Part shown: positions 16,314 through 25,854 of the stretch, in pieces | Layout of the letters: each line of letters opens with the position of its first letter | Numbering within the stretch: the first letter of the stretch is position 1 | Source: Brevibacterium casei CIP 102111 | GTDB lineage: Bacteria; Actinomycetota; Actinomycetes; Actinomycetales; Brevibacteriaceae | Reading direction: 5' to 3' | DNA: 64,000 nucleotides | NCBI RefSeq assembly: GCF_900169275.1 | Contig: NZ_FXZC01000004.1 | Coordinates: forward strand, 1 to 64,000 | Program-made: the position numbers and the translations under genes | The notes under the pieces: generated by a model | Database searches by the model: none | Seen by the model: only the letters and a program-made list of their open reading frames with translations | What the model was told of the DNA's origin: nothing

Positions 16314-17681
16314 ATGTCAGCCGAGGTCCTATCCGCCCTGTCCGCAGCCCTGCCCGCCGAGGCGATCGTCACCGACCCCGATTCGATGGACGCCTATCGG
16401 TGGGATCGCGCGAACGACCCTGATGCGGGCATGCCGCTGGCCATCGTCCGCGCGACCTCGACCGAGGACGTCCAGACCGTCGTCCGCATCGCCGCGGCCG
16501 CAAAGATCCCCGTCGTCCCCCGCGGCGCCGGCTCCGGCCTCTCGGGCGGCAGCTCCGCGGTCGAGGGCGGCATCATCGTCTGCCTCGACCGGATGCGGGA
16601 GATCGCCGTCGACCCTGCGACCCGCATCGCCGTCGTCCAACCGGGGGCCTTCAACGCCGAGGTCAAGGCCGCGGCCGCCGAGCACGGCCTGTGGTACCCG
16701 CCGGACCCCTCGTCGTACGAGTTCTGCTCGATCGGCGGCAACGTCGCGACGAACGCGGGCGGGCTCTGCTGCGTCAAGTACGGGGTGACGACGGACTACG
16801 TGCTCGGGATGACGGTCGTGCTCGCCGACGGCCGCGCCGTCGAGCTCGGCGGGCCCCGCGTCAAGGACGTCGCGGGGCTGTCCCTGACGAAGCTCTTCGT
16901 CGGCAGCGAGGGCACTCTCGGCATCATCACCGAGGTGACCCTGCGCCTCATCCCCGCCCAGCTGCCGCCGACGACCCTCGTCGCCACGTTCCCCACCCTC
17001 GAGGGAGCGACCCAGACCGTCCTCGACATCTGTGCGCAGATGCGCCTGTCGATGCTCGAGTTCATGGATCGCGCCTCGATCAATGCCGTCGAGGACGAGC
17101 TGCGGATGGGCCTCGACCGGGAGGCCGCAGGCATGCTCGTCATCCAGTCCGACGAACCCGGCGAGTATGCGTCCGGACAGATCGCGACCGTCGAGGAGCT
17201 CTGTGCGAAGAACGGGGCGAGCGAGGTCTATGCGACCGACGACGCCGACGAGGGGGAGGCCTTCGTCACCGCCCGGCGGATGGCGATCCCCGCGGTCGAG
17301 AAGAAGGGCACCCTCCTGCTCGAGGACGTCGGCGTGCCGCTGCCCCGCCTCGGCGATCTCGTCGTCGGGATCGAGCGGATCGCCGAGGACCGCGACGTCC
17401 TCATCTCCGTCATCGCCCACGCCGGGGACGGCAACACCCATCCGCTGCTCATCGTCGACCCCACGGACGCCGAACAGCGAGCGCGGGCCGACATCGCCTA
17501 CGGCGAGGTGATGGACTTGGCGACCTCACTCGGCGGGACGATCACCGGCGAGCACGGGGTGGGACGGCTGAAGAAGCCGTGGCTGGCCGACTACCTCGGC
17601 GCCGATGTCATGGAGCTCAACCACCGGATCAAGGCCGCGCTCGACCCGGACAACATCCTCAATCCGGGCGCCGTGTACTGA
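16314..17681 (+). CDS. FAD-linked oxidase, GlcD / D-lactate dehydrogenase-like
   Basis: A 455-residue flavoprotein of the VAO/PCMH family: an N-terminal FAD-binding domain with PVVPRGAGSGLSGGSSAVEGG (pyrophosphate loop) and SIGGNVATNAGG, and a C-terminal FAD-oxidase C domain with AHAGDGNTHPL and GTITGEHGVGRLKKPWL. These are hallmarks of glycolate oxidase subunit GlcD and D-2-hydroxyacid dehydrogenases, which pass electrons to the respiratory chain. GlcE and GlcF are absent, so a stand-alone D-lactate or D-2-hydroxyglutarate-type enzyme is more likely. Two ATGs lie in tandem (16311, 16314); I chose the second because GAGGAG ends 4 nt before it and only 1 nt before the first. Confidence 0.88.
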   Translation: MSAEVLSALSAALPAEAIVTDPDSMDAYRWDRANDPDAGMPLAIVRATSTEDVQTVVRIAAAAKIPVVPRGAGSGLSGGSSAVEGGIIVCLDRMREIAVDPATRIAVVQPGAFNAEVKAAAAEHGLWYPPDPSSYEFCSIGGNVATNAGGLCCVKYGVTTDYVLGMTVVLADGRAVELGGPRVKDVAGLSLTKLFVGSEGTLGIITEVTLRLIPAQLPPTTLVATFPTLEGATQTVLDICAQMRLSMLEFMDRASINAVEDELRMGLDREAAGMLVIQSDEPGEYASGQIATVEELCAKNGASEVYATDDADEGEAFVTARRMAIPAVEKKGTLLLEDVGVPLPRLGDLVVGIERIAEDRDVLISVIAHAGDGNTHPLLIVDPTDAEQRARADIAYGEVMDLATSLGGTITGEHGVGRLKKPWLADYLGADVMELNHRIKAALDPDNILNPGAVY

Positions 17682-17733
17682 GGCGTGCCCCGGCTGGGGC
17701 CGGGGCGTTCCCCGGCTGCTGCCGGACAGCACA

Positions 17734-17763
17734 GAGGCGGCCACCCGAACGGGTGGCCGCCTC
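17734..17763. terminator. Bidirectional terminator, 13-bp perfect stem
   Basis: GAGGCGGCCACCC and its exact complement flank a GAAC loop, between the convergent FAD-oxidase and coiled-coil protein genes. Strong stem, no T-run. Confidence 0.85.
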
Positions 17764-17791
17764 GGTCGTCACCGGCGACGGTCGGTGCGTC

Positions 17792-18541
17792 TCAGTGCTT
17801 GGCGTTGGTGTCCTTCGGGTCGCCGGCCGCGGGGTTCGGAGTCGCGGGCTTCGGCGCGGTCGTCGGCTTCGGAGCCGGGGTGGCATCCGTCTTCGACTCG
17901 GGCACCGGAGCCTGCGAGACCGTGGGCGTCGTGCCCTGGCGCGAGGCCGGGGTCGAGCCGACGGGGCGGGCGTCAGCGGGACGGTTGTTCGGCAGCGGGG
18001 TCGACCAGGGATCCTCGACCGGCTGGGCCTTCTTCCACACGTAGTAGCCGATGCCGGCGGCCGAGCCGATGACGAGCGTCCACACGAGGGCCTTCTTGCT
18101 CGTGTTCGACTTCTGTGCGGTCTCCTTCTGGATCCGCTTGCCGGCATTGGCGAGGGCCTTGCGGGCCTTCTTCATCGCCTTCTTGTCACCGGTGAGGCGC
18201 ACAGCGAGGTTGTCGATGAGCTGCGGGGTCTCCATCGCCGCGAGCGAGGCGGCAGCCGTTCCGGCGACCTTCCCGGCCCTCTCCGTGGCTTCGGGGCGGT
18301 ACGCCTCGATCCGGTCGGCGATGTCGTGGACCTGACGGTTGGCCTTCTCGGCCAGAGCCTCGACCTGCGGACGGGCCTTCTCCGTGAAGACACCGACCTG
18401 CTCATTCGCCCTGTCGGCTGCCTCGCGGAGCTTGGGCGCCGCCGCATCCGACGCGTCGGCCAGGAACCGGAGCGACGTCTTCTTCGCGGAATCGAGCTTC
18501 GACGCGAGCGGCTTCCGAGCTGGTTTCTTCGACATGAACAT
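17792..18541 (-). CDS. Membrane-anchored coiled-coil protein, unknown
   Basis: A 249-residue protein. Residues 1-150 are Ala/Glu/Lys-rich helix with coiled-coil character and heptad-like spacing (ADRANEQVGVFTEKA). One hydrophobic helix lies near 152-170 (ALVWTLVIGSAAGIGYYVW), followed by a Pro/Ala/Thr-rich tail that would be outside the cell. The layout resembles apolipoprotein-like or DUF-type envelope proteins, but I do not recognise a family. It is divergent from ppiA at the edge of the cell-division block. The ATG at 18541 has GGAGG 7 nt upstream; an in-frame TTG (18547) and ATG (18535) are alternatives. Confidence 0.7.
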   Translation of the reverse strand: MFMSKKPARKPLASKLDSAKKTSLRFLADASDAAAPKLREAADRANEQVGVFTEKARPQVEALAEKANRQVHDIADRIEAYRPEATERAGKVAGTAAASLAAMETPQLIDNLAVRLTGDKKAMKKARKALANAGKRIQKETAQKSNTSKKALVWTLVIGSAAGIGYYVWKKAQPVEDPWSTPLPNNRPADARPVGSTPASRQGTTPTVSQAPVPESKTDATPAPKPTTAPKPATPNPAAGDPKDTNAKH

Positions 18542-18579
18542 TCCCAATCCTCCGGGTCAGGGGCAACTGATCACTCCCC

Positions 18580-18585
18580 AGTCTA
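18580..18585 (-). promoter_or_regulatory. -10 element of the coiled-coil protein gene
   Basis: TAGACTGGG on the minus strand, identical to the putative crgA -10 at 20986-20991 including the GGG that follows. No clear -35. Confidence 0.4.
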
Positions 18586-18709
18586 CGGCCTGGCCCGGGG
18601 GCGCACGCCACCTCAGGGCCAGGAATTTGCCTGCGGATACGCTGGCAGAGTCGTACAAACCCACCTTGATGGAACCGCAGACCTGTGTGCGGCATGGAAG
18701 AATGAGGGC

Positions 18710-19252
18710 ATGTCTACAGTTGCAACGAACACAGCGGTCCTGCACACCAACCACGGCGACATCACGATCAACCTCTTCGGCAACCATGCTCCGAAGACGG
18801 TCGCCAACTTCGTCGAGCTGGCCACGGGTGAGCGCGAGTTCACCGATCCCCAGACCGGTGAGCCGACGAAGCGCCCCTTCTACGACGGCGTCGGCTTCCA
18901 CCGCATCATCTCGAACTTCATGATCCAGGGCGGTGACCCGCTCGGCACCGGCACCGGCGGTCCCGGATACGTCTTCGACGACGAGATCCACCCCGAACTC
19001 CAGTTCGACAAGAAGTACCTGCTCGCGATGGCCAATGCCGGCAAGCAGATGGGCCGCGGCACCAACGGCTCGCAGTTCTTCATCACCACCGCTGAGACCC
19101 CGTGGCTCAACGGCAAGCACACGATCTTCGGCGAGGTCGCCGACGAGGCCTCGCAGAAGGTCGTCGACGAGATCGAAGGCGTGCGCACGGGTGCGATGGA
19201 CAAGCCCGTCGAGCCGGTCGTCATCGAATCCGTCGAGATCAAGGACGCCTGA
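18710..19252 (+). CDS. ppiA: Cyclophilin-type peptidyl-prolyl isomerase
   Basis: A 180-residue cyclophilin that speeds cis/trans isomerisation of X-Pro bonds, probably cytoplasmic (no signal peptide). The active site is visible: FHRIISNFMIQGGDP (catalytic Arg), GTNGSQFFIT and the substrate-pocket WLNGKHTIFGEV. It holds the same place at the head of the crgA-pknB block as Mycobacterium ppiA. The ATG is at 18710; AAGAAT ends 6 bp upstream, so it may be leaderless. The strong hairpin at 19286-19320 is the likely end of its transcript. Confidence 0.93.
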   Translation: MSTVATNTAVLHTNHGDITINLFGNHAPKTVANFVELATGEREFTDPQTGEPTKRPFYDGVGFHRIISNFMIQGGDPLGTGTGGPGYVFDDEIHPELQFDKKYLLAMANAGKQMGRGTNGSQFFITTAETPWLNGKHTIFGEVADEASQKVVDEIEGVRTGAMDKPVEPVVIESVEIKDA

Positions 19253-19271
19253 GCACCAGTACGATGGTGCC

Positions 19272-19979
19272 ATGAGCACACCAGAACAGGGCCCGGCCAG
19301 GGAATCAGGCCGGGCCCTGTCCGTGTCCATCCCCCTGGTGACACGGACGATCATGATCGTCACGGGACTGTCGTTCCTCCTCCAGCTGCTGCCGGGACTC
19401 GACCTCATCCACCGGCTGAGCTTCGTCCCCGCTCTCACCCTCGACCAGCCGTGGCGCCTGCTCACCGTCGCCCTTGTCCACGAGCAGCCCTCTCCCATCC
19501 ATCTGCTCGCGAACATGATCGGGCTCTTCTTCTTCGGCTCGTTCGTCGAGCGGGCGCTCGGGCGGTGGCGCTTCCTCGCGGTCTACCTCCTCGGCGCGAT
19601 CGGCGGCTCCGTCATGGTCCTCCTCCTCGCCGAACCGTGGAGCCGGGACTGGGTGACGAACAACATCGGCGCCTCGGGTGCCGTGTTCGCGATCATCGGC
19701 GTCCTCCTCGTCCCGACGAAGCGCCTCGACCGCAACATCACCGGTGTCGTCCTCTTCGTCGTCCTCAACTTCGGCTACGGGTTCCTCGTCGAGGGTGTCT
19801 CGTGGGAGGCCCACCTCGGCGGGCTGCTCACCGGCTTCGTCCTCGGTTGCGCGGCGCTGCTCGTCAAGCCTCAGCGCTCAACCCTCGTGTTCTGGCTCGT
19901 TGCCGCCGGCCTCGTCGTCCTCATGGCCGTCGCCGCCGTCGTCAAGACGCTCGCCGCCGGCCCGGCACCGGGGCTCTGA
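19272..19979 (+). CDS. Rhomboid-family intramembrane serine protease
   Basis: A 235-residue, six- to seven-helix rhomboid that cleaves transmembrane segments. The catalytic Ser is in NIGASGAVFAI near residue 136 and the catalytic His in WEAHLGGLLTG near 181; the HxxxN-type motif HLLANMIGLFFFG lies in helix 2. It is conserved in this position in actinobacterial genomes. The start is uncertain: the ATG at 19272 has no Shine-Dalgarno and a 13-bp perfect hairpin falls within codons 5-16. In-frame GTGs at 19323 and 19338, after the hairpin, would still give complete helix 1. Confidence 0.9.
   Translation: MSTPEQGPARESGRALSVSIPLVTRTIMIVTGLSFLLQLLPGLDLIHRLSFVPALTLDQPWRLLTVALVHEQPSPIHLLANMIGLFFFGSFVERALGRWRFLAVYLLGAIGGSVMVLLLAEPWSRDWVTNNIGASGAVFAIIGVLLVPTKRLDRNITGVVLFVVLNFGYGFLVEGVSWEAHLGGLLTGFVLGCAALLVKPQRSTLVFWLVAAGLVVLMAVAAVVKTLAAGPAPGL
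19286..19320. terminator. Strong hairpin at the ppiA/rhomboid junction
   Basis: ACAGGGCCCGGCC and its perfect complement flank a 9-nt loop (AGGGAATCA). It has the strength and position of a ppiA terminator, but lies inside the first codons of the rhomboid gene if that starts at 19272. Confidence 0.6.
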
Positions 19980-20067
19980 GAGGCGGGCACCTGAGAGCTG
20001 GGTCGGGGACGTTCTCCGGGGCTCCGAGAACCGCAGGCGATGTGCCTCCCGGCACTGCATCTGTGCT

Positions 20068-20150
20068 TTGTCCACAGGGGTTATCCACACGGTGGAAAAC
20101 TTACACGCGTGTGTTTCCCCAGGTCACAGGGGTGAAAAAAGTTATGCACA
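20068..20150. other. Cluster of DnaA-box-like sites
   Basis: On the plus strand TTGTCCACA (20068-20076), TTATCCACA (20081-20089) and TTATGCACA (20142-20150) all fit the DnaA-box consensus; the first is the common actinobacterial form and the second the strong E. coli form. A weaker minus-strand site TTTTCCACC lies at 20091-20099. The first two are 13 bp apart. dnaA and dnaN are not in the window, so this is unlikely to be oriC itself. Confidence 0.65.
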
Positions 20151-20190
20151 GGACAGAGTCGTTGCTTGGGTATAACTCAGAAGTCGACGA

Positions 20191-20231
20191 AACCCTCCAC
20201 CTGCCCGTGTGATCGGGGCGAGTGGAGGGTT
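20191..20231. terminator. Bidirectional terminator before crgA and after rhomboid
   Basis: AACCCTCCAC and GTGGAGGGTT pair perfectly; the 21-nt interval can fold further (CCCG with CGGG). It separates two convergent genes. Confidence 0.65.
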
Positions 20232-20273
20232 GCGTGGTGAGCGACAGCGTGGCGGCTGCGCAGCGGCGCGGCG

Positions 20274-20921
20274 CTATCGCCAGCGGGTGGACATGATGAG
20301 GCCCGCGACGAAGAACGCGAAGCCGATGAGGATGTTCCAGTTGCCCCAGGCCTCGACGGGGAACGCGCCCTGGGTGATGTAGAACGTCACGAGCCAGATG
20401 AGGCCGACGAGGAGGAGGCCGATGAGGACGGGGAGGAACCAGCGCGGGTTCGGCTTGATCGTCTGCTGACCGGCCTCGGAGGTGTAGCTCGCCGTCTTCC
20501 GGCCCTGCGAGCGCTTGGCGGGATTCCCCGAGCGCGAGGTCCGCTTCGTCGCGGCCTTCTTCCCGCCCTTTGAATCCTTGGTCTTCGCGGAGTCAGCCTT
20601 CGCGTCCTTGGAGTCCTTGTCCTTGGAGACCCTGTCCTTCGAGTCCTTCGCCGTGCTCTCGGACTTCTTCTCGTCCTTCGCCGAGGCGGCTGCATCGTCG
20701 TCAGCGTCCGTCTCTTCAGCGTCGGTGTCCTCGTCCGCGTCGGTCTCGGTGACCTCGATCTCCGTGACCTCGACCGTCTCGGTGCCTCCCGTGGCGTCGG
20801 TCTCGGTGACCTCGACGTCGGTCTCCTCGACGACGGCCGCGTCGTCGGTCGTCGACTCGGGCTTCGCCGTGGTGCGCGAGGTGCGCTGAGGGCGCGAGGT
20901 CCGTCCTTTGGACTTGGCCAC
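20274..20921 (-). CDS. crgA: Cell-division protein CrgA with long N-terminal extension
   Basis: A 215-residue protein. The last ~75 residues are a standard CrgA: PNPRWFLPVLIGLLLVGLIW (helix 1), then GAFPVEAWGNWNILIGFAFF (helix 2) ending STRWR. CrgA is a two-helix protein that binds FtsZ, FtsQ, FtsI and other divisome parts in Actinobacteria, and is usually about 85-95 residues. Here some 120 extra residues precede it: an acidic Thr/Glu/Asp stretch (residues ~20-75) and then a Lys/Ser/Asp stretch (~76-135). This segment would be cytoplasmic and is rich in Thr and Ser, near pknA/pknB. The GTG at 20921 has GGAG 5 nt upstream and no better start follows. Confidence 0.88.
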   Translation of the reverse strand: MAKSKGRTSRPQRTSRTTAKPESTTDDAAVVEETDVEVTETDATGGTETVEVTEIEVTETDADEDTDAEETDADDDAAASAKDEKKSESTAKDSKDRVSKDKDSKDAKADSAKTKDSKGGKKAATKRTSRSGNPAKRSQGRKTASYTSEAGQQTIKPNPRWFLPVLIGLLLVGLIWLVTFYITQGAFPVEAWGNWNILIGFAFFVAGLIMSTRWR

Positions 20922-20985
20922 GTGAACTCCTTCGACAGCGAACCCGGGCGGGTCGCCGATGCTCTGGTCGGGGATGATCGCACCC

Positions 20986-20991
20986 AGTCTA
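20986..20991 (-). promoter_or_regulatory. crgA -10 element
   Basis: TAGACT on the minus strand, 65 bp before the GTG start, with TTCGCG 17 bp upstream as a weak -35. Confidence 0.4.
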
Positions 20992-21126
20992 CTCGGGAGG
21001 CGAGCATGCGCGAAAAACCTCGCCCGCGCCTCGGCGACGCCACGACGGCGCCCGGAGTCAGCGGCTTCGGCACTGCGCGCGGGAGGCTCAGAGTCAGCTG
21101 TGTGCGAAGCCGAGACGAGCTGTGAA

Positions 21127-21174
21127 GGGGACACCGCGTCACGTTCATGCGATAAAGTTCTGTAGGGTGTCCCC
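21127..21174. promoter_or_regulatory. 9-bp inverted repeat around the sortase promoter
   Basis: GGGGACACC (21127-21135) and GGTGTCCCC (21166-21174) are exact complements 30 bp apart. The right arm overlaps a TAGGGT hexamer (21163-21168). It may be a looped operator or a 5'-leader hairpin. Confidence 0.4.
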
Positions 21175-21227
21175 GCTCGATCACTGGTCGAGCCCCGGAT
21201 TGCAAAGGTCATAGGCACGGTGCAGAA

Positions 21228-22481
21228 GTGGTGAACAGTCTCTCCTCGGATAGCGAATCGTCTTCGAGACCCACCATTCGCGCGGCGCAGCGACGCCAGC
21301 CCGCCCCGCAGCCCATCGACCCGGGCCCGGCGACGGAGCCGATGCGCACCGATGCGATCGCCTCCTCCGGCCAGGGTGAGAGCGCCTCCCGCGGACCGGG
21401 AGACACCGCCGCAGCGGGTGGCTACGACGCGCCCCTGCCGAGCCGCCGCGAACTGCGCCGTCGGGAAGCCGAAGCCGCCGGTGCCGCCCCCGCGTCCTAC
21501 TCCGATGCCCCGCCCCTCGGCGACGGCCCTGCGACCCAGGCGATGCCGGCGCAGTACACGGCCGCCCAGTACACCGCTCCCCAGTACAGCCAGCCCCAGC
21601 ACCCCCGGCCCCAGACCGGCTATGCGGAGGGCGTCCCGGCCACAGCGGCACAGGGCGCGGTCGCGGCAGGCGAGCCCCACCTCGGCGGGGGAGGCGGCTC
21701 CGGACGGGGCGGAGGGGGCCGGAGGAAGCAGCCGCCGCAGCGTCAGCCGCTCGGCCCGATCCGCGGAACGATCCGCACCTTCGGCGAACTCTGCATCACC
21801 GCCGGTCTCGTCCTCATCCTCTTCGTCGCGTGGCAGCTGTGGTGGACGGACATCGAAGCCGACCGCGACAACGAGGTCCTCGCGGACCAGCTGACGAAGG
21901 ACTGGGCGAACCAGGACCCGAACAAGCTGCCCGCGGACCCCGACGAACCCGTCGTCGCGGAACCGGTGGAGAAGAACACGGCGTTCGGGATCTTCTACAT
22001 CCCGCGCTTCGGCGACGACTACTACCGCACTCTCGCCGAGGGCGTCGACCTCGAACCCGTCCTCAACCGGATGGGCGTGGGCCGCTACCCGAACTCGGCG
22101 ATGCCCGGGGAGGTCGGCAACTTCTCCGTCGCCGGCCACCGCGTCACGTACGGCAAGCCGTTCAACCAGATCGCGAAGCTGCGGCCCGGCGATGAGATCG
22201 TCGTCCAGACGAAGGACGGGTTCTACACGTACACGTTCCGCAACTTCGACATCATCCTCCCCGACGCCGTCGAGGTCCTCGCCCCCGTGCCCGACCAGCC
22301 CGAGTACAAGGGCAAGGACAGGATCCTCACGCTCACCGCGTGCAACCCGATGTTCTCCGCCCGCGAGCGCTACATCGCCTACGCCGAACTCACGGAGTGG
22401 ACCCCGGCCTCCGAGGGTGCGCCCGACTCGATCAAGGACTCGAAGGCCTACGAAAAGGTCAGCAAGAACGGTGGTGCCTGA
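21228..22481 (+). CDS. Class E sortase
   Basis: A 417-residue sortase, an envelope transpeptidase that anchors or pilin-links surface proteins (class E prefers LAXTG in Actinobacteria). Residues 1-180 are a Pro/Gln/Ala/Gly-rich, disordered cytoplasmic region with short PQYTAAQYTAPQY-like repeats. One membrane helix lies near 183-206. The extracellular sortase domain has the catalytic His in FSVAGHRVTYG (near 303), the Cys in LTLTACNPMFSARERYI (near 370) and the Arg in the same segment. The start is at GTG 21228 (a second GTG follows at once) with a poor Shine-Dalgarno. First gene of a compact three-gene operon. Confidence 0.92.
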   Translation: MVNSLSSDSESSSRPTIRAAQRRQPAPQPIDPGPATEPMRTDAIASSGQGESASRGPGDTAAAGGYDAPLPSRRELRRREAEAAGAAPASYSDAPPLGDGPATQAMPAQYTAAQYTAPQYSQPQHPRPQTGYAEGVPATAAQGAVAAGEPHLGGGGGSGRGGGGRRKQPPQRQPLGPIRGTIRTFGELCITAGLVLILFVAWQLWWTDIEADRDNEVLADQLTKDWANQDPNKLPADPDEPVVAEPVEKNTAFGIFYIPRFGDDYYRTLAEGVDLEPVLNRMGVGRYPNSAMPGEVGNFSVAGHRVTYGKPFNQIAKLRPGDEIVVQTKDGFYTYTFRNFDIILPDAVEVLAPVPDQPEYKGKDRILTLTACNPMFSARERYIAYAELTEWTPASEGAPDSIKDSKAYEKVSKNGGA

Positions 22482-22482
22482 C

Positions 22483-22650
22483 ATGTACGCATTCATCTGG
22501 CGGCTCCTGCCCGGACCGTGGTTCGTCAAGCTCGTCTTCGCGCTCATCCTCATCGCCGCGGTCGTCCTCCTCCTCATGCAGTACGTCTTCCCGGCCGTCG
22601 CGCCCTACATGCCGTTCAACAACGCGACCGTCACCGACGAAGGCGCGTGA
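22483..22650 (+). CDS. 55-residue single-helix membrane protein
   Basis: A small protein with a hydrophobic helix (LVFALILIAAVVLLLMQYVF) followed by APYMPFNN and an acidic end. A small membrane protein between the sortase gene and the component II gene is common in related actinobacteria, so it is probably real; function unknown. The ATG lies 1 bp after the sortase stop and the stop overlaps the next ATG (TGATG), so translation is coupled on both sides. Confidence 0.75.
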   Translation: MYAFIWRLLPGPWFVKLVFALILIAAVVLLLMQYVFPAVAPYMPFNNATVTDEGA

Positions 22651-23336
22651 TGACCTCGATCCTCGTCGTCGACAACTACGACAGCTTCGTCTACACCCTC
22701 GTCTCCTACGTCCGTGAGCTCGGTGCGAGCGCGGACGTCATCCGCAACGACGATCTGGGCGCCGAGGCGGCCGTGGAGCTGGCGCGCGGATACGACGGGA
22801 TCCTGCTGTCTCCGGGTCCCGGTGTGCCCGCCGAATCCGGCGTGTGCCCCGACCTCATCCGCTGGGCCGCCGAGGCGGGCAAGCCCCTGTTCGGCGTGTG
22901 CCTCGGCCATCAGGCCCTCGGCGAGGTGTTCGGGGCGACCGTGACGCATTCGCCGGTCCTCATGCACGGCAAGACCTCGGTCATCACCCATGAGGGTCAG
23001 GGCGTCTTCGCCGGATGCCCGTCTCCGCTCACGGTCACCCGCTACCATTCGCTGGCGATCGTCGATGAGACGATCGACCTCGAGACCTTCGCCGTGACCG
23101 CGCGCACCGCCGACGGCGTCGTCATGGCCATCGAGCACCGCACCGTCCCGCTCCACGGCGTCCAGTTCCACCCCGAATCGGTGCTCACCGAATCCGGGTA
23201 CCTCATGCTCGGCAACTGGCTCGAAGTCTGTGGGCTCGCCGGCGCCGCCGAGCGTGCTGCGTCGATGTCGCCGCTGGCCAGCGCGATGACGTCTCCGTCA
23301 CCGGGAGAGCTTTCCCGTCACCGGCCGAGCGCTTAG
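22650..23336 (+). CDS. Anthranilate / aminodeoxychorismate synthase component II
   Basis: A 228-residue class I glutamine amidotransferase that supplies ammonia to component I for tryptophan or folate (p-aminobenzoate) synthesis. The nucleophile Cys is in FGVCLGHQALGE near residue 83; the His/Glu pair is in GVQFHPESVLTE near 172. The oxyanion-side ILLSPGPGVPAESG is intact. Component I is not in the window, so trpG and pabA cannot be separated, and one protein may serve both. Position upstream of pknB is conserved in Actinobacteria. About 25 residues after the catalytic core look unstructured. Confidence 0.93.
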   Translation: MTSILVVDNYDSFVYTLVSYVRELGASADVIRNDDLGAEAAVELARGYDGILLSPGPGVPAESGVCPDLIRWAAEAGKPLFGVCLGHQALGEVFGATVTHSPVLMHGKTSVITHEGQGVFAGCPSPLTVTRYHSLAIVDETIDLETFAVTARTADGVVMAIEHRTVPLHGVQFHPESVLTESGYLMLGNWLEVCGLAGAAERAASMSPLASAMTSPSPGELSRHRPSA

Positions 23337-23394
23337 GATCGGTTCCACACTCATCCAGACCGTCCACCGGCGGTCGCCAGCGAGAGGAATCCCC

Positions 23395-23907
23395 ATGCCC
23401 GAACCCAGCTACATCCCGACCGAGCCGTATCGCGAACTCACCGTGTTCGAGGCTCAGCCGGTGCCCACGGTCGTCGTCGAGGCGCAGGGCCATCCGATGG
23501 ACGAGCTCCCCGCCCTCTTCGACGCCGTCTTCTCGCGCCTCTTCCCCGCCCTCGCCGAGGCGGGCGTGGAGCCTGCCGGGCCGGCGTTCTCGCTCTACAC
23601 GCGCCCGCCCACGGACACCGTCGACATCCAGGTCGGGGTTCCCGTGGCCACGGGGCTGAGCCAGGCGCTCGATCTCGGGGACGACCTCACCGCGATTCCC
23701 GCCGAACTGCCCGGCGGGTCGATCGGGGCGATCTCCCACCTCGGCGGGTTCGACGGTCTCGCCGAGGCGTGGAACGCGCACATGCAGGCCCTGGTGGCCG
23801 CCGGACACCATCCGGACATGCCGTTCTTCGAGGTCTACGTGACCGAGCCGAATCCGGAGATGGACCCGGCGGATCTGCGCACCGACCTCTTCGTCACTCT
23901 CGGCTGA
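23395..23907 (+). CDS. GyrI-like / effector-binding domain protein
   Basis: A 170-residue protein resembling the SOUL/GyrI-like small-molecule-binding domain found at the C-terminus of MerR- and AraC-type regulators, but with no DNA-binding part. It contains the two-fold repeated beta-alpha-beta-beta pattern, with FSLYTRPPTDTVDIQVGVPV in the middle and FFEVYVTEPN at the end. It may bind or act on a small ligand. The ATG has AGGA 6 nt upstream. It converges on pknB with 3 bp between stops. Confidence 0.75.
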   Translation: MPEPSYIPTEPYRELTVFEAQPVPTVVVEAQGHPMDELPALFDAVFSRLFPALAEAGVEPAGPAFSLYTRPPTDTVDIQVGVPVATGLSQALDLGDDLTAIPAELPGGSIGAISHLGGFDGLAEAWNAHMQALVAAGHHPDMPFFEVYVTEPNPEMDPADLRTDLFVTLG

Positions 23908-23910
23908 GAC

Positions 23911-25854
23911 TCAGTCGCGGCCGTTGCCGTTGCCGTTGTTGCCGCGACGGCCGTCGGACCAGCCGTCGAACCACGACTCCCCGCCGCCGACGGCGCCGTC
24001 GGTCTCGGTGCCGCCGCTGCCGTTGTCGTTGCCGTCGCCGCCGGCGTCATCGGACGGTGAGGTCGGGATGCCGCCGGGGACCGACGGGATCGTCGGGGTG
24101 GGCTCCGGGGGCTTCTTCGCCACGGTCACGGTGATCTCCGACCCCTGCGCCACGTCGGTGCCGCCGGGCGTCGACTGCTCGTAGACCTTGCCCTCCTCCT
24201 GGTCAGCTGTCTCGACCTCCTCGACCTTGCAACCGAGTTTGTAGTCGTCGCCCTTGAGCGTGTTGCACGCTTCGTCGGCGGTCTGACCGGTGACGTCGGG
24301 GACCTTGACCATGCCGGAGGAGACGACGAGGTCGACGTTCGAGTCGACATCGACCTTCTCGCCCTCGCCGGGCTTCGTCTCGATGACGACGCCCTTCTTG
24401 ACGTCCGGGGAGTTCTGGGTGATGTGCGTGCCGGCCTGGAGTTTGGCGTCCTTGAGGATCTGGCGGGCCTCCTCCTCGGTCTTGCCGGCGACCTCGGGGA
24501 TCGAGACGCTCTCCGGACCGAGGGAGACGAGGAGTTTGACCTGGCTGTTCTCCGGGATGGACTGTCCGGCGGCGGGATCGGTCGAGATCGCCTTGCCCTC
24601 GTCGACCTCGGTGCTGTACTGCTCCTCCGGGGTGACTTGGAATCCCTGATTGCGCAGCTGCGCCTCGGCGGCGTCGGCGTCGAGCCCGGCGACATCGGCC
24701 ACCTGGACCTGGACGATCTCCGGTGGCTTGTTGATCTCGTACACCCACAGGGCGAGTGCGGCGAGAGCGAGGAGGACGAAGATGCTGCCGATCCAGATCC
24801 ATGCCTTCGACCGCTTCTGCGGGGGGCGCTCCTCCTGCCGGTTCATGATCGTCGAGACCGGACCCGTCTCGGGGGCCGACTCGTAGTCCGCGGGGTAGAC
24901 CTGAGTGCCCGTGGGAGGCCCCATCATCCCGGCTCCGGCACCTGCTCCGGCGGCGGCGAAGGCCTGGGTGCGGTCCTCGTCACCGCCGTCGATGCTCAGC
25001 GGTCGGCCGTCGCGGGCGGCCAGCACGTCCTCACGGAAGGTGTAGGCGTCCTGGTAGCGCTCGTCGCGGTCCTTCTGCAGGGCATGGAGGACGAGGCGGT
25101 CGACCTCGGGCGGGATGGTGGGGTTGTAGAAGCTCGGGGGCTGCGGGGTCTCCCCGACGTGCTGGTAGGCCACGGCGAGCTGGGAGTCGCCGACGAACGG
25201 GGGTCGACCGGCGAGGAGCTCGTAGAGGAGGCACGCGGTCGAGTAGAGGTCGGAGCGGGCGTCGACGACCTCGCCGCGCGCCTGCTCGGGGGAGAGGTAC
25301 TGTGCGGTGCCGACGACGGACTGCGTCTGCGTCAGCCCGCTGTTGTCCTTGAGCGCCCTGGCGATCCCGAAGTCCATGACCTTGATGTCGCCTTCGGGGG
25401 TGAGCATGACGTTCGCCGGTTTGATGTCGCGGTGGACGATGCCGTTGCGGTGCGAGTACTCGAGCGGGGCGAGGACTCCGGCGACGACGTTGAGCGCCTC
25501 GTCGACGGTGAGGGTGCCGTGCTCGTTGAGGACCTCTCGCAGGGTCTGGCCCTCGACGTACTCCATGACGATGAAGGGAACGGAGACGCTCGAGCCGCCG
25601 GATTCGACGAACTCCTCCTCCCCGGAGTCGTAGACGGCGACGATGCCGGGATGGTTGAGACCGGCAGCGGACTGCGCCTCGCGCTTGAGGCGGGTGTGGA
25701 ACGACGGATCGCGCGCAAGATCGGACCGCAGAAGCTTGATCGCGATGCGCCGCCCCAGACGGGTGTCGACGCCCTCGTGCACCTCTGCCATGCCCCCACG
25801 GCCGAGGAGGGTACGGACTTCGTACCTCTCCGACAGCACTTTGGGCTCAGTCAT
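23911..25854 (-). CDS. pknB: Ser/Thr protein kinase PknB with three PASTA repeats
   Basis: A 647-residue membrane kinase that phosphorylates cell-wall and division proteins in response to muropeptides. Kinase domain residues 11-275: GRGGMAEVHEG loop, catalytic HRDIKPANVM, DFG in VMDFGIARAL, and a Thr-rich activation loop (SGLTQTQSVVGTAQYLSPEQ). A single helix lies near 351-372. Three PASTA repeats follow (VQVADVAGLD, VSIPEVAGKT, VKVPDVTGQT), one fewer than in Mycobacterium. The third carries two Cys 13 residues apart, perhaps a disulfide. The end is a Gly/Asn/Asp-rich tail. GGAGG precedes the ATG. Last gene of the fhaA-to-pknB run, 83 bp after pknA. Confidence 0.95.
   Translation of the reverse strand: MTEPKVLSERYEVRTLLGRGGMAEVHEGVDTRLGRRIAIKLLRSDLARDPSFHTRLKREAQSAAGLNHPGIVAVYDSGEEEFVESGGSSVSVPFIVMEYVEGQTLREVLNEHGTLTVDEALNVVAGVLAPLEYSHRNGIVHRDIKPANVMLTPEGDIKVMDFGIARALKDNSGLTQTQSVVGTAQYLSPEQARGEVVDARSDLYSTACLLYELLAGRPPFVGDSQLAVAYQHVGETPQPPSFYNPTIPPEVDRLVLHALQKDRDERYQDAYTFREDVLAARDGRPLSIDGGDEDRTQAFAAAGAGAGAGMMGPPTGTQVYPADYESAPETGPVSTIMNRQEERPPQKRSKAWIWIGSIFVLLALAALALWVYEINKPPEIVQVQVADVAGLDADAAEAQLRNQGFQVTPEEQYSTEVDEGKAISTDPAAGQSIPENSQVKLLVSLGPESVSIPEVAGKTEEEARQILKDAKLQAGTHITQNSPDVKKGVVIETKPGEGEKVDVDSNVDLVVSSGMVKVPDVTGQTADEACNTLKGDDYKLGCKVEEVETADQEEGKVYEQSTPGGTDVAQGSEITVTVAKKPPEPTPTIPSVPGGIPTSPSDDAGGDGNDNGSGGTETDGAVGGGESWFDGWSDGRRGNNGNGNGRD

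Follow-up and report, generated by a model that had tools for sequence, protein, structure and literature searches.

A conserved cluster of DnaA boxes beside crgA, probably a replication-control site outside the origin, in Brevibacterium and other Actinobacteria

Clusters of DnaA boxes that lie outside the replication origin (oriC) can regulate chromosome copying. In Streptomyces coelicolor and Bacillus subtilis they repress untimely initiation (PMC4585315, PMC5742627). In Escherichia coli, datA combines such a cluster with a site for a second protein, IHF (PMC5742627), and DARS1 and DARS2 have a compact core with boxes in opposite orientations, 101 bp in DARS1, with DARS2 needing extra proteins (PMC5742627). 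datA promotes hydrolysis of DnaA-ATP together with IHF, and DARS promotes the release of ADP from DnaA. In Mycobacterium tuberculosis, DnaA binds five regions in vitro, among them the Rv0010c-Rv0011c region (Hicks et al. 2020, PMC7738170). The same source describes the homologous region of M. smegmatis as DnaA-bound by chromatin immunoprecipitation sequencing, finds that variants of the region phenotypically resemble dnaA variants, longer cells included, names titration and nucleotide exchange as options while leaving the role open, and sees no obvious correspondence to other bacterial species. Here we describe what appears to be a counterpart in Brevibacterium, located in the spacer between a rhomboid protease gene and the cell-division gene crgA in a window of 64,000 nucleotides that opens contig C9 of a draft genome of 3.84 Mb (G000). 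The spacer carries a cluster of consensus DnaA boxes away from dnaA that exceeds chance and occupies the same place in relatives. Judged from sequence, we consider it likely, at a probability of roughly 0.68, that this spacer acts as a conserved regulatory site bound by DnaA outside oriC, similar in role to datA or DARS, with a predicted second protein on its palindrome.

The complete Brevibacterium element measures about 112 bp (20066..20177, plus strand), the span of a 95.8-bit match in the window to a genus model built from 15 sequences (R1), and is ordered as two direct boxes, an inverted box, a palindrome of class consensus TYACACNNGTGTRA and a second inverted pair. Box 1 (TTGTCCACA, 20068..20076, plus strand) has the sequence of a high-affinity box of M. 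tuberculosis and S. coelicolor (PMC4285127), and box 2 (TTATCCACA, 20081..20089, plus strand) starts 13 bp from the start of box 1. Box 3 (TTTTCCACC, 20091..20099, minus strand) is inverted and reads GTGGATAA in the other aligned relatives. The palindrome (TTACACGCGTGTGT, 20101..20114) begins 33 bp from the first base of box 1 and precedes box 4 (TTATGCACA, 20142..20150, plus strand; often TTATCCACA, TTTTCCACA or TTATACACA in relatives), which forms an inverted repeat with the weak inverted box 5 (TTATACCCA, 20167..20175, minus strand; genus form GGGTATAACT). A preliminary description of this DNA had listed four of these 9-mers, all of which we found at the places and on the strands given, in DNA that it correctly called locally AT-richer (guanine-plus-cytosine (GC) content of 0.50 at 20060-20160 versus 0.69 across the window). 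Box 5 was absent from that list; of the 15 relatives aligned for the Brevibacterium model, 14 retain it. The description was also right that both flanking genes end in the spacer and that dnaA lies outside the window: the rhomboid gene upstream (19272..19979, plus strand; PF01694, E 1.3e-29) and crgA (20274..20921, minus strand; PF06781, E 4.6e-23) converge on the spacer, both identities being backed by Pfam, and the only DnaA_C match of the genome is on contig C14 (C14:22791-22991, minus strand).

Two checks proposed in the preliminary description, of box density within this genome and of conservation in the same spacer of relatives, were run and bear out the cluster. TTWTNCACA occurs twice in the window against 0.12 expected. 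Genome-wide there are 19 TTRTSCACA and 47 TTNTSCACA sites, and three of the 47 sit in the spacer within 83 bp, forming the densest box cluster of the genome; an equally tight triplet arose in 0 of 20000 random placements of 47 sites, a test that is blind to other causes of box clustering and on which the conservation tests do not depend.

Within Brevibacterium, the rhomboid gene was detected in 55 of 57 genomes, and a spacer was obtained from 42 of 50 parsed loci. The core motif is present in 36 of these spacers, which align almost gap-free (34 of the 36 aligned rows have a gap-free element), and is missing from the other six. Searches with R1 at E <= 0.1 gave matches in 51 of the 57 genomes, 38 near full length and 13 partial. 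In 37 of the 38 full-length genomes the rhomboid gene is followed after 7-292 bp by the element, always on the same strand, the 38th having no rhomboid match; nine of the partial matches lie <= 1.5 kb from the rhomboid gene, one is far off and three are on other contigs. All 23 named Brevibacterium loci, including those of B. linens ATCC 9172, B. epidermidis NBRC 14811 and B. aurantiacum ATCC 9175, contain the element, although many of these are probably the same assemblies as those among the 57 genomes. Mean pairwise identity across 29 sequences is 0.845 for the element, compared with 0.607 for codon position 3 in the adjoining rhomboid gene and 0.559 for the 5' flank. Of the 406 pairs, 405 are more alike in the element than at codon position 3, a sign that this non-coding DNA is under purifying selection.

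The cluster recurs well beyond the genus. Among 246 genomes of the class to which Brevibacterium belongs, crgA was detected in 245, and we read 70 crgA loci from 30 families, comprising the 30 best CrgA matches and 40 loci picked for family spread before their boxes were inspected (families other than that of Brevibacterium are given as codes). The 400 bp 3' of crgA hold 69 TTRTCCACA sites in 48 of the 70 loci, whereas the next 400 bp hold one, the 400 bp on the 5' side of crgA hold none (30 loci readable there) and shuffled spacers hold a mean of 0.17 and a maximum of 2. With the looser TTNTSCACA, 55 of the 70 loci have a box versus 0.82 in shuffles. A 51-bp class model built from 29 sequences (R2), the window sequence itself among them, matches the window at 20068..20116 (plus strand; model positions 2-50 of 51) with E 9.2e-10 in the whole genome, the top of three matches at E <= 0.1, and matches 210 of the 246 class genomes at that threshold. 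For the 89 of the 246 genomes with coordinates of both crgA and R2 among the matches listed, which for R2 extend to about E 4e-6, the best match lies <= 500 bp 3' of crgA in 81 (2-261 bp away, median 63 bp), and in 77 of the 81 its strand is opposite to that of crgA; for genomes outside the model the figure is 54 of 62. dnaA and crgA share a contig in 57 of the 70 class genomes compared, at a median distance of 18 kb (the three longest of the 57 distances run across a record's start). Since the cluster recurs at the same near-origin place in most Actinobacteria examined, it very probably serves to control chromosome copying rather than being a leftover.

An order-wide search with R1 matched 107 of 297 genomes at E <= 0.01, Brevibacterium included, the matches outside the genus mostly spanning only about model positions 4-60; a crude motif recognised a rhomboid-like open reading frame in 10 of 14 loci read outside the genus and none in the other four. 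In a phylum-wide sample, R2 matched 177 of 296 genomes, many of the out-of-class matches being weak and partial. Twenty out-of-class matches were chosen from the 22 best-ranking genomes, leaving out G591 and G781, and 15 of them adjoin relatives of ppiA, crgA, sortase, trpG, pknB or pbpA, sometimes just one of these, while five adjoin none.

The core also has a recurrent architecture. When loci are aligned on the palindrome, many show box 1, then a direct and an inverted box or two inverted boxes, and then TYACACNNGTGTRA, and in the 48 loci that fit this composite (45 of 67 class loci and three of four from Brevibacterium) the start of box 1 precedes the palindrome by 33 bp in 37 and 32 bp in 11, under a fit score that favoured these two spacings. 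The 67 are the 70 class loci less L234, L243 and L249; 22 of them fall outside the composite, some fitting by eye with another spacing, and one of the 45 (L252) looks accidental. This fixed spacing between box and palindrome argues for a single nucleoprotein complex. A relaxed form of the palindrome motif is rare in the 400-kb regions of two Brevibacterium genomes (G027 and G020), and in both of them two relaxed-motif sites outside the element flank dnaA and overlap DnaA boxes, an observation that is weak alone since these sites are missing from the window's genome and its two nearest relatives (L143-L145).

A connection also appears in the rpmH-dnaA region, where the palindrome-like T(C/A)ACANNN(G/A)TGTAG directly abuts TTTTCCACA or TTATCCACA in 25 of 25 Brevibacterium loci (L143-L172 set; 25 of 30, those cut at a contig end being left out). 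In the window's genome this arrangement is at G000:C14:24379-24475 (L010 10379-10475). The next box follows 3 bases on, whereas in the crgA element 4 bases separate boxes 1 and 2, and a stricter pattern demanding the 4-base spacing to the next box found 0 of the 25 rpmH-dnaA loci; R2 likewise scores low there in the window's genome, at 18.9 bits without the palindrome and 14.6 bits with it. A related, non-identical arrangement of palindrome and box thus seems common to the dnaA promoter region and the crgA element, which suggests that a second protein may serve both. Two candidates for the palindrome binder were set aside. The MtrA motifs quoted in PMC6265350 differ, by eye, from the palindrome. 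HigA2, whose recognition sequence is ATCAC(N)4-7GTGAT and which at 8 uM bound the Rv0010c site in vitro (PMC11205783), is a toxin-antitoxin regulator and seems unable to explain a phylum-wide motif. Elsewhere within the element, GTCACAG at 20123-20129 resembles the MtrA motif GTCACAGCG of the M. tuberculosis oriC (PMC4285127). The sequence GGTCA, also within the element, is well conserved across the genus.

How far does the element correspond to the known systems? We take Rv0011c to be crgA, and on that assumption the mycobacterial region and the element both lie beside this gene. By the positions in PMC7738170 the former is about 13.6 kb into the chromosome, and it is described there as a DnaA-box cluster with a small palindrome of two box-like sequences. 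The element shares such paired inverted box-like sequences, a likeness drawn from the description and not from the mycobacterial letters, and it lies directly 3' of crgA and near dnaA as expected of a counterpart. In ten genomes coded f22/g96, the R2 match is 12-15 kb from dnaA in nine and 35 kb in one, and from the 12-15 kb distance and the architecture, among other features, we take these genomes to be mycobacteria. The two loci differ in that the far neighbour starts in the mycobacterial spacer whereas the Brevibacterium genes converge, and in that the text available of PMC7738170 gives no description of a second palindrome like that of the element. The layout also recalls datA, with its box cluster and second-protein site (letters and spacing were not part of this likeness), and DARS, with its compact core of boxes in opposite orientations. 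The DARS core has box I opposite to boxes II and III at fixed spacing; in the element, by orientation alone, boxes 1 and 2 point the same way and box 3 the other. The S. coelicolor clusters are presumably those named H24, H69 and D78, with crgA on cosmid H69. Extra-origin boxes of S. coelicolor lie near oriC (Smulczyk-Krawczyszyn et al. 2006, as cited in PMC4585315 and PMC5742627), and the f34 loci that we read have three to five boxes 3' of crgA.

The preliminary description had offered a DnaA-titrating or reactivating locus, an accessory origin and the relic of an origin as possible roles. The first is the best reading and is strengthened by DnaA binding at the apparent mycobacterial counterpart (PMC7738170), although sequence does not decide between the two directions; the other two are not supported. 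That the element is a main or accessory replication start displaced from dnaA could draw on its AT-richness relative to its surroundings and on strong boxes that are denser there than in the dnaA-dnaN spacer of the same genome (G000, G056 and G136), but we consider this highly improbable. Measuring the distance to dnaA, a step that the preliminary description had proposed, gives about 43 kb plus a gap if the starts of C9 and C14 face each other, and among the 38 Brevibacterium genomes with a full element dnaA is on the same contig in 28, at 25-84 kb in 26 and across the record start in two; the element does not stand beside dnaA/dnaN, where oriC would be sought. It is only about 112 bp long, the mycobacterial oriC is a DnaA-bound region separate from Rv0010c-Rv0011c (PMC7738170), and all 30 Brevibacterium loci read carry TTATCCACA 17 bp past the dnaA stop, so that the element has not replaced the boxes of the dnaA region. 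No switch in GC skew is seen at 20.1 kb of the window. Skew at fourfold sites in the 400-kb regions of G027 and G020 gives too faint a signal to locate the origin; its peak falls on neither site, and in each region dnaA scores slightly above the element. Between element and dnaA this skew leans weakly towards dnaA as the origin (one-sided p of 0.035 by permutation, 97 genes pooled; the two G000 pieces lean one each way). A relic, whether of an origin or as a chance cluster without function, would fit the genomes in which the element is missing or partial, yet its probability is close to nil given the class-wide boxes, the R2 matches, the pairwise identity and the random placements.

A role in transcription, in which DnaA at this site would regulate crgA, the rhomboid gene or a nearby transcript and so link replication to division, gains some appeal from the steady neighbourhood with crgA and the sortase-trpG-pknB block, from the part that crgA and the pknB-pbpA block play in cell-wall growth and division, and from the mycobacterial neighbour that starts beside the site on its other side (PMC7738170). 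We nonetheless regard it as unlikely. The preliminary description had doubted promoter control, and for Brevibacterium this was justified: both genes end at the spacer, a promoter scan of 19900-20350 found no sigma-70-like promoter, and expression of the flanking genes is described as unchanged in mycobacterial dnaA mutants (PMC7738170), which together speak against local transcription control. The crude motif recognised a rhomboid gene in only part of the 70 class loci, so that the gene on the far side seems to differ between loci that keep the boxes. An RNA or transcript element was considered as well; 17000-24000 gave no Rfam match at gathering threshold, and a terminator scan of 19900-20350 gave no terminator-like site. 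It is also improbable that the spacer serves chromosome organisation or segregation near the origin, with the palindrome as its main part and DnaA as one of several proteins. The closeness to dnaA and the spacing of the palindrome, fixed across families, would suit such a site, but no known segregation or nucleoid protein was matched to the palindrome, and in the R2 alignment box 1 is conserved at least as well as the palindrome.

If the spacer is a DnaA-binding control site, its mode of action may be sketched as follows. DnaA would bind the paired boxes as a complex of fixed geometry, and a second protein would probably bind the palindrome, which follows the start of box 1 at 32-33 bp. Lying tens of kilobases from dnaA, the site would be duplicated soon after each initiation and could thereby change the amount of active DnaA free for oriC, through titration, stimulated ATP hydrolysis as at datA or nucleotide exchange as at DARS. 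The position near dnaA and the early duplication would suit titration or inactivation, as with datA.

Several points weigh against this interpretation. DnaA binding in Brevibacterium is a prediction, and the apparent equation with Rv0010c-Rv0011c draws on architecture and on a position beside crgA that presupposes the gene assignment made above. Six of the 57 Brevibacterium genomes have no R1 match and 13 have partial matches only, 15 of the 70 class loci have no TTNTSCACA, the f34 genomes (taken as Streptomycetaceae) and the f32 genomes have weak R2 matches at best, and G397 of f46 has none; in the f34 spacers (four of four read) the boxes 3' of crgA are not in the R2 order. The co-location rate applies to strong R2 matches, the genomes outside the model include close relatives of those within it, and in eight of 89 genomes the best match is away from crgA. 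These eight are G364, at 1.6 kb, and seven small f38 genomes (G347, G361, G373, G426, G434, G450 and G466), four with the match 9-10 kb from crgA and three with the match about 10.7 kb into a single-contig record that has crgA near its opposite end. The f38 genomes offer a natural separation of element from crgA that is usable in tests.

Turning to the surroundings of the element, Pfam places a cyclophilin (ppiA-like) gene before the rhomboid gene in the window and, beyond crgA, a sortase, a glutamine amidotransferase (trpG/pabA-like), two Pkinase genes (pknB- and pknA-like) and a penicillin-binding protein. An inverted repeat between the element and the crgA stop (20187..20235) is perhaps the crgA terminator and has no T run in the terminator scan. 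Other box groups occur in the same genome. The second densest (G000:C7:97824-98040, L006) has three sites in 217 bp and lies <= ~1 kb from a NUDIX gene, a tight group at G000:C13:38821-38852 (L011 8821-8852) has two copies of TTATCCACA 23 bp apart, together with partial boxes that lie between and after them, close to open reading frames without a Pfam match, and at G000:C6:65369 (L004) TTATCCACC adjoins TTGTCCACA upstream of a gene for a MoxR-type AAA ATPase. In family f6, L213 and L218 (G201 and G136) have many boxes in the stretch behind the rhomboid gene, G136 having seven TTRTCCACA within 650 bp there versus two at its dnaA end.

The DnaA site was known in mycobacteria; its wide conservation and its architecture appear to be new. 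Within the open-licence literature we found no account of phylum-wide conservation and no paper joining DnaA boxes, crgA and oriC, a search by name that can miss relevant work, as PMC7738170 does not use the name crgA. The chances seem to us evenly balanced that Actinobacteria share one ancient DnaA-control site beside crgA or its gene block, predating the split of the classes, with a palindrome-binding protein that also acts at the dnaA promoter region. Were this true, the shared site would be the phylum's own counterpart of datA and DARS and would explain the mycobacterial DnaA site. That site gains a likely phylum-wide family, a defined core and a predicted second protein, and DnaA tuning outside the origin in Actinobacteria becomes testable in Brevibacterium or Corynebacterium glutamicum.
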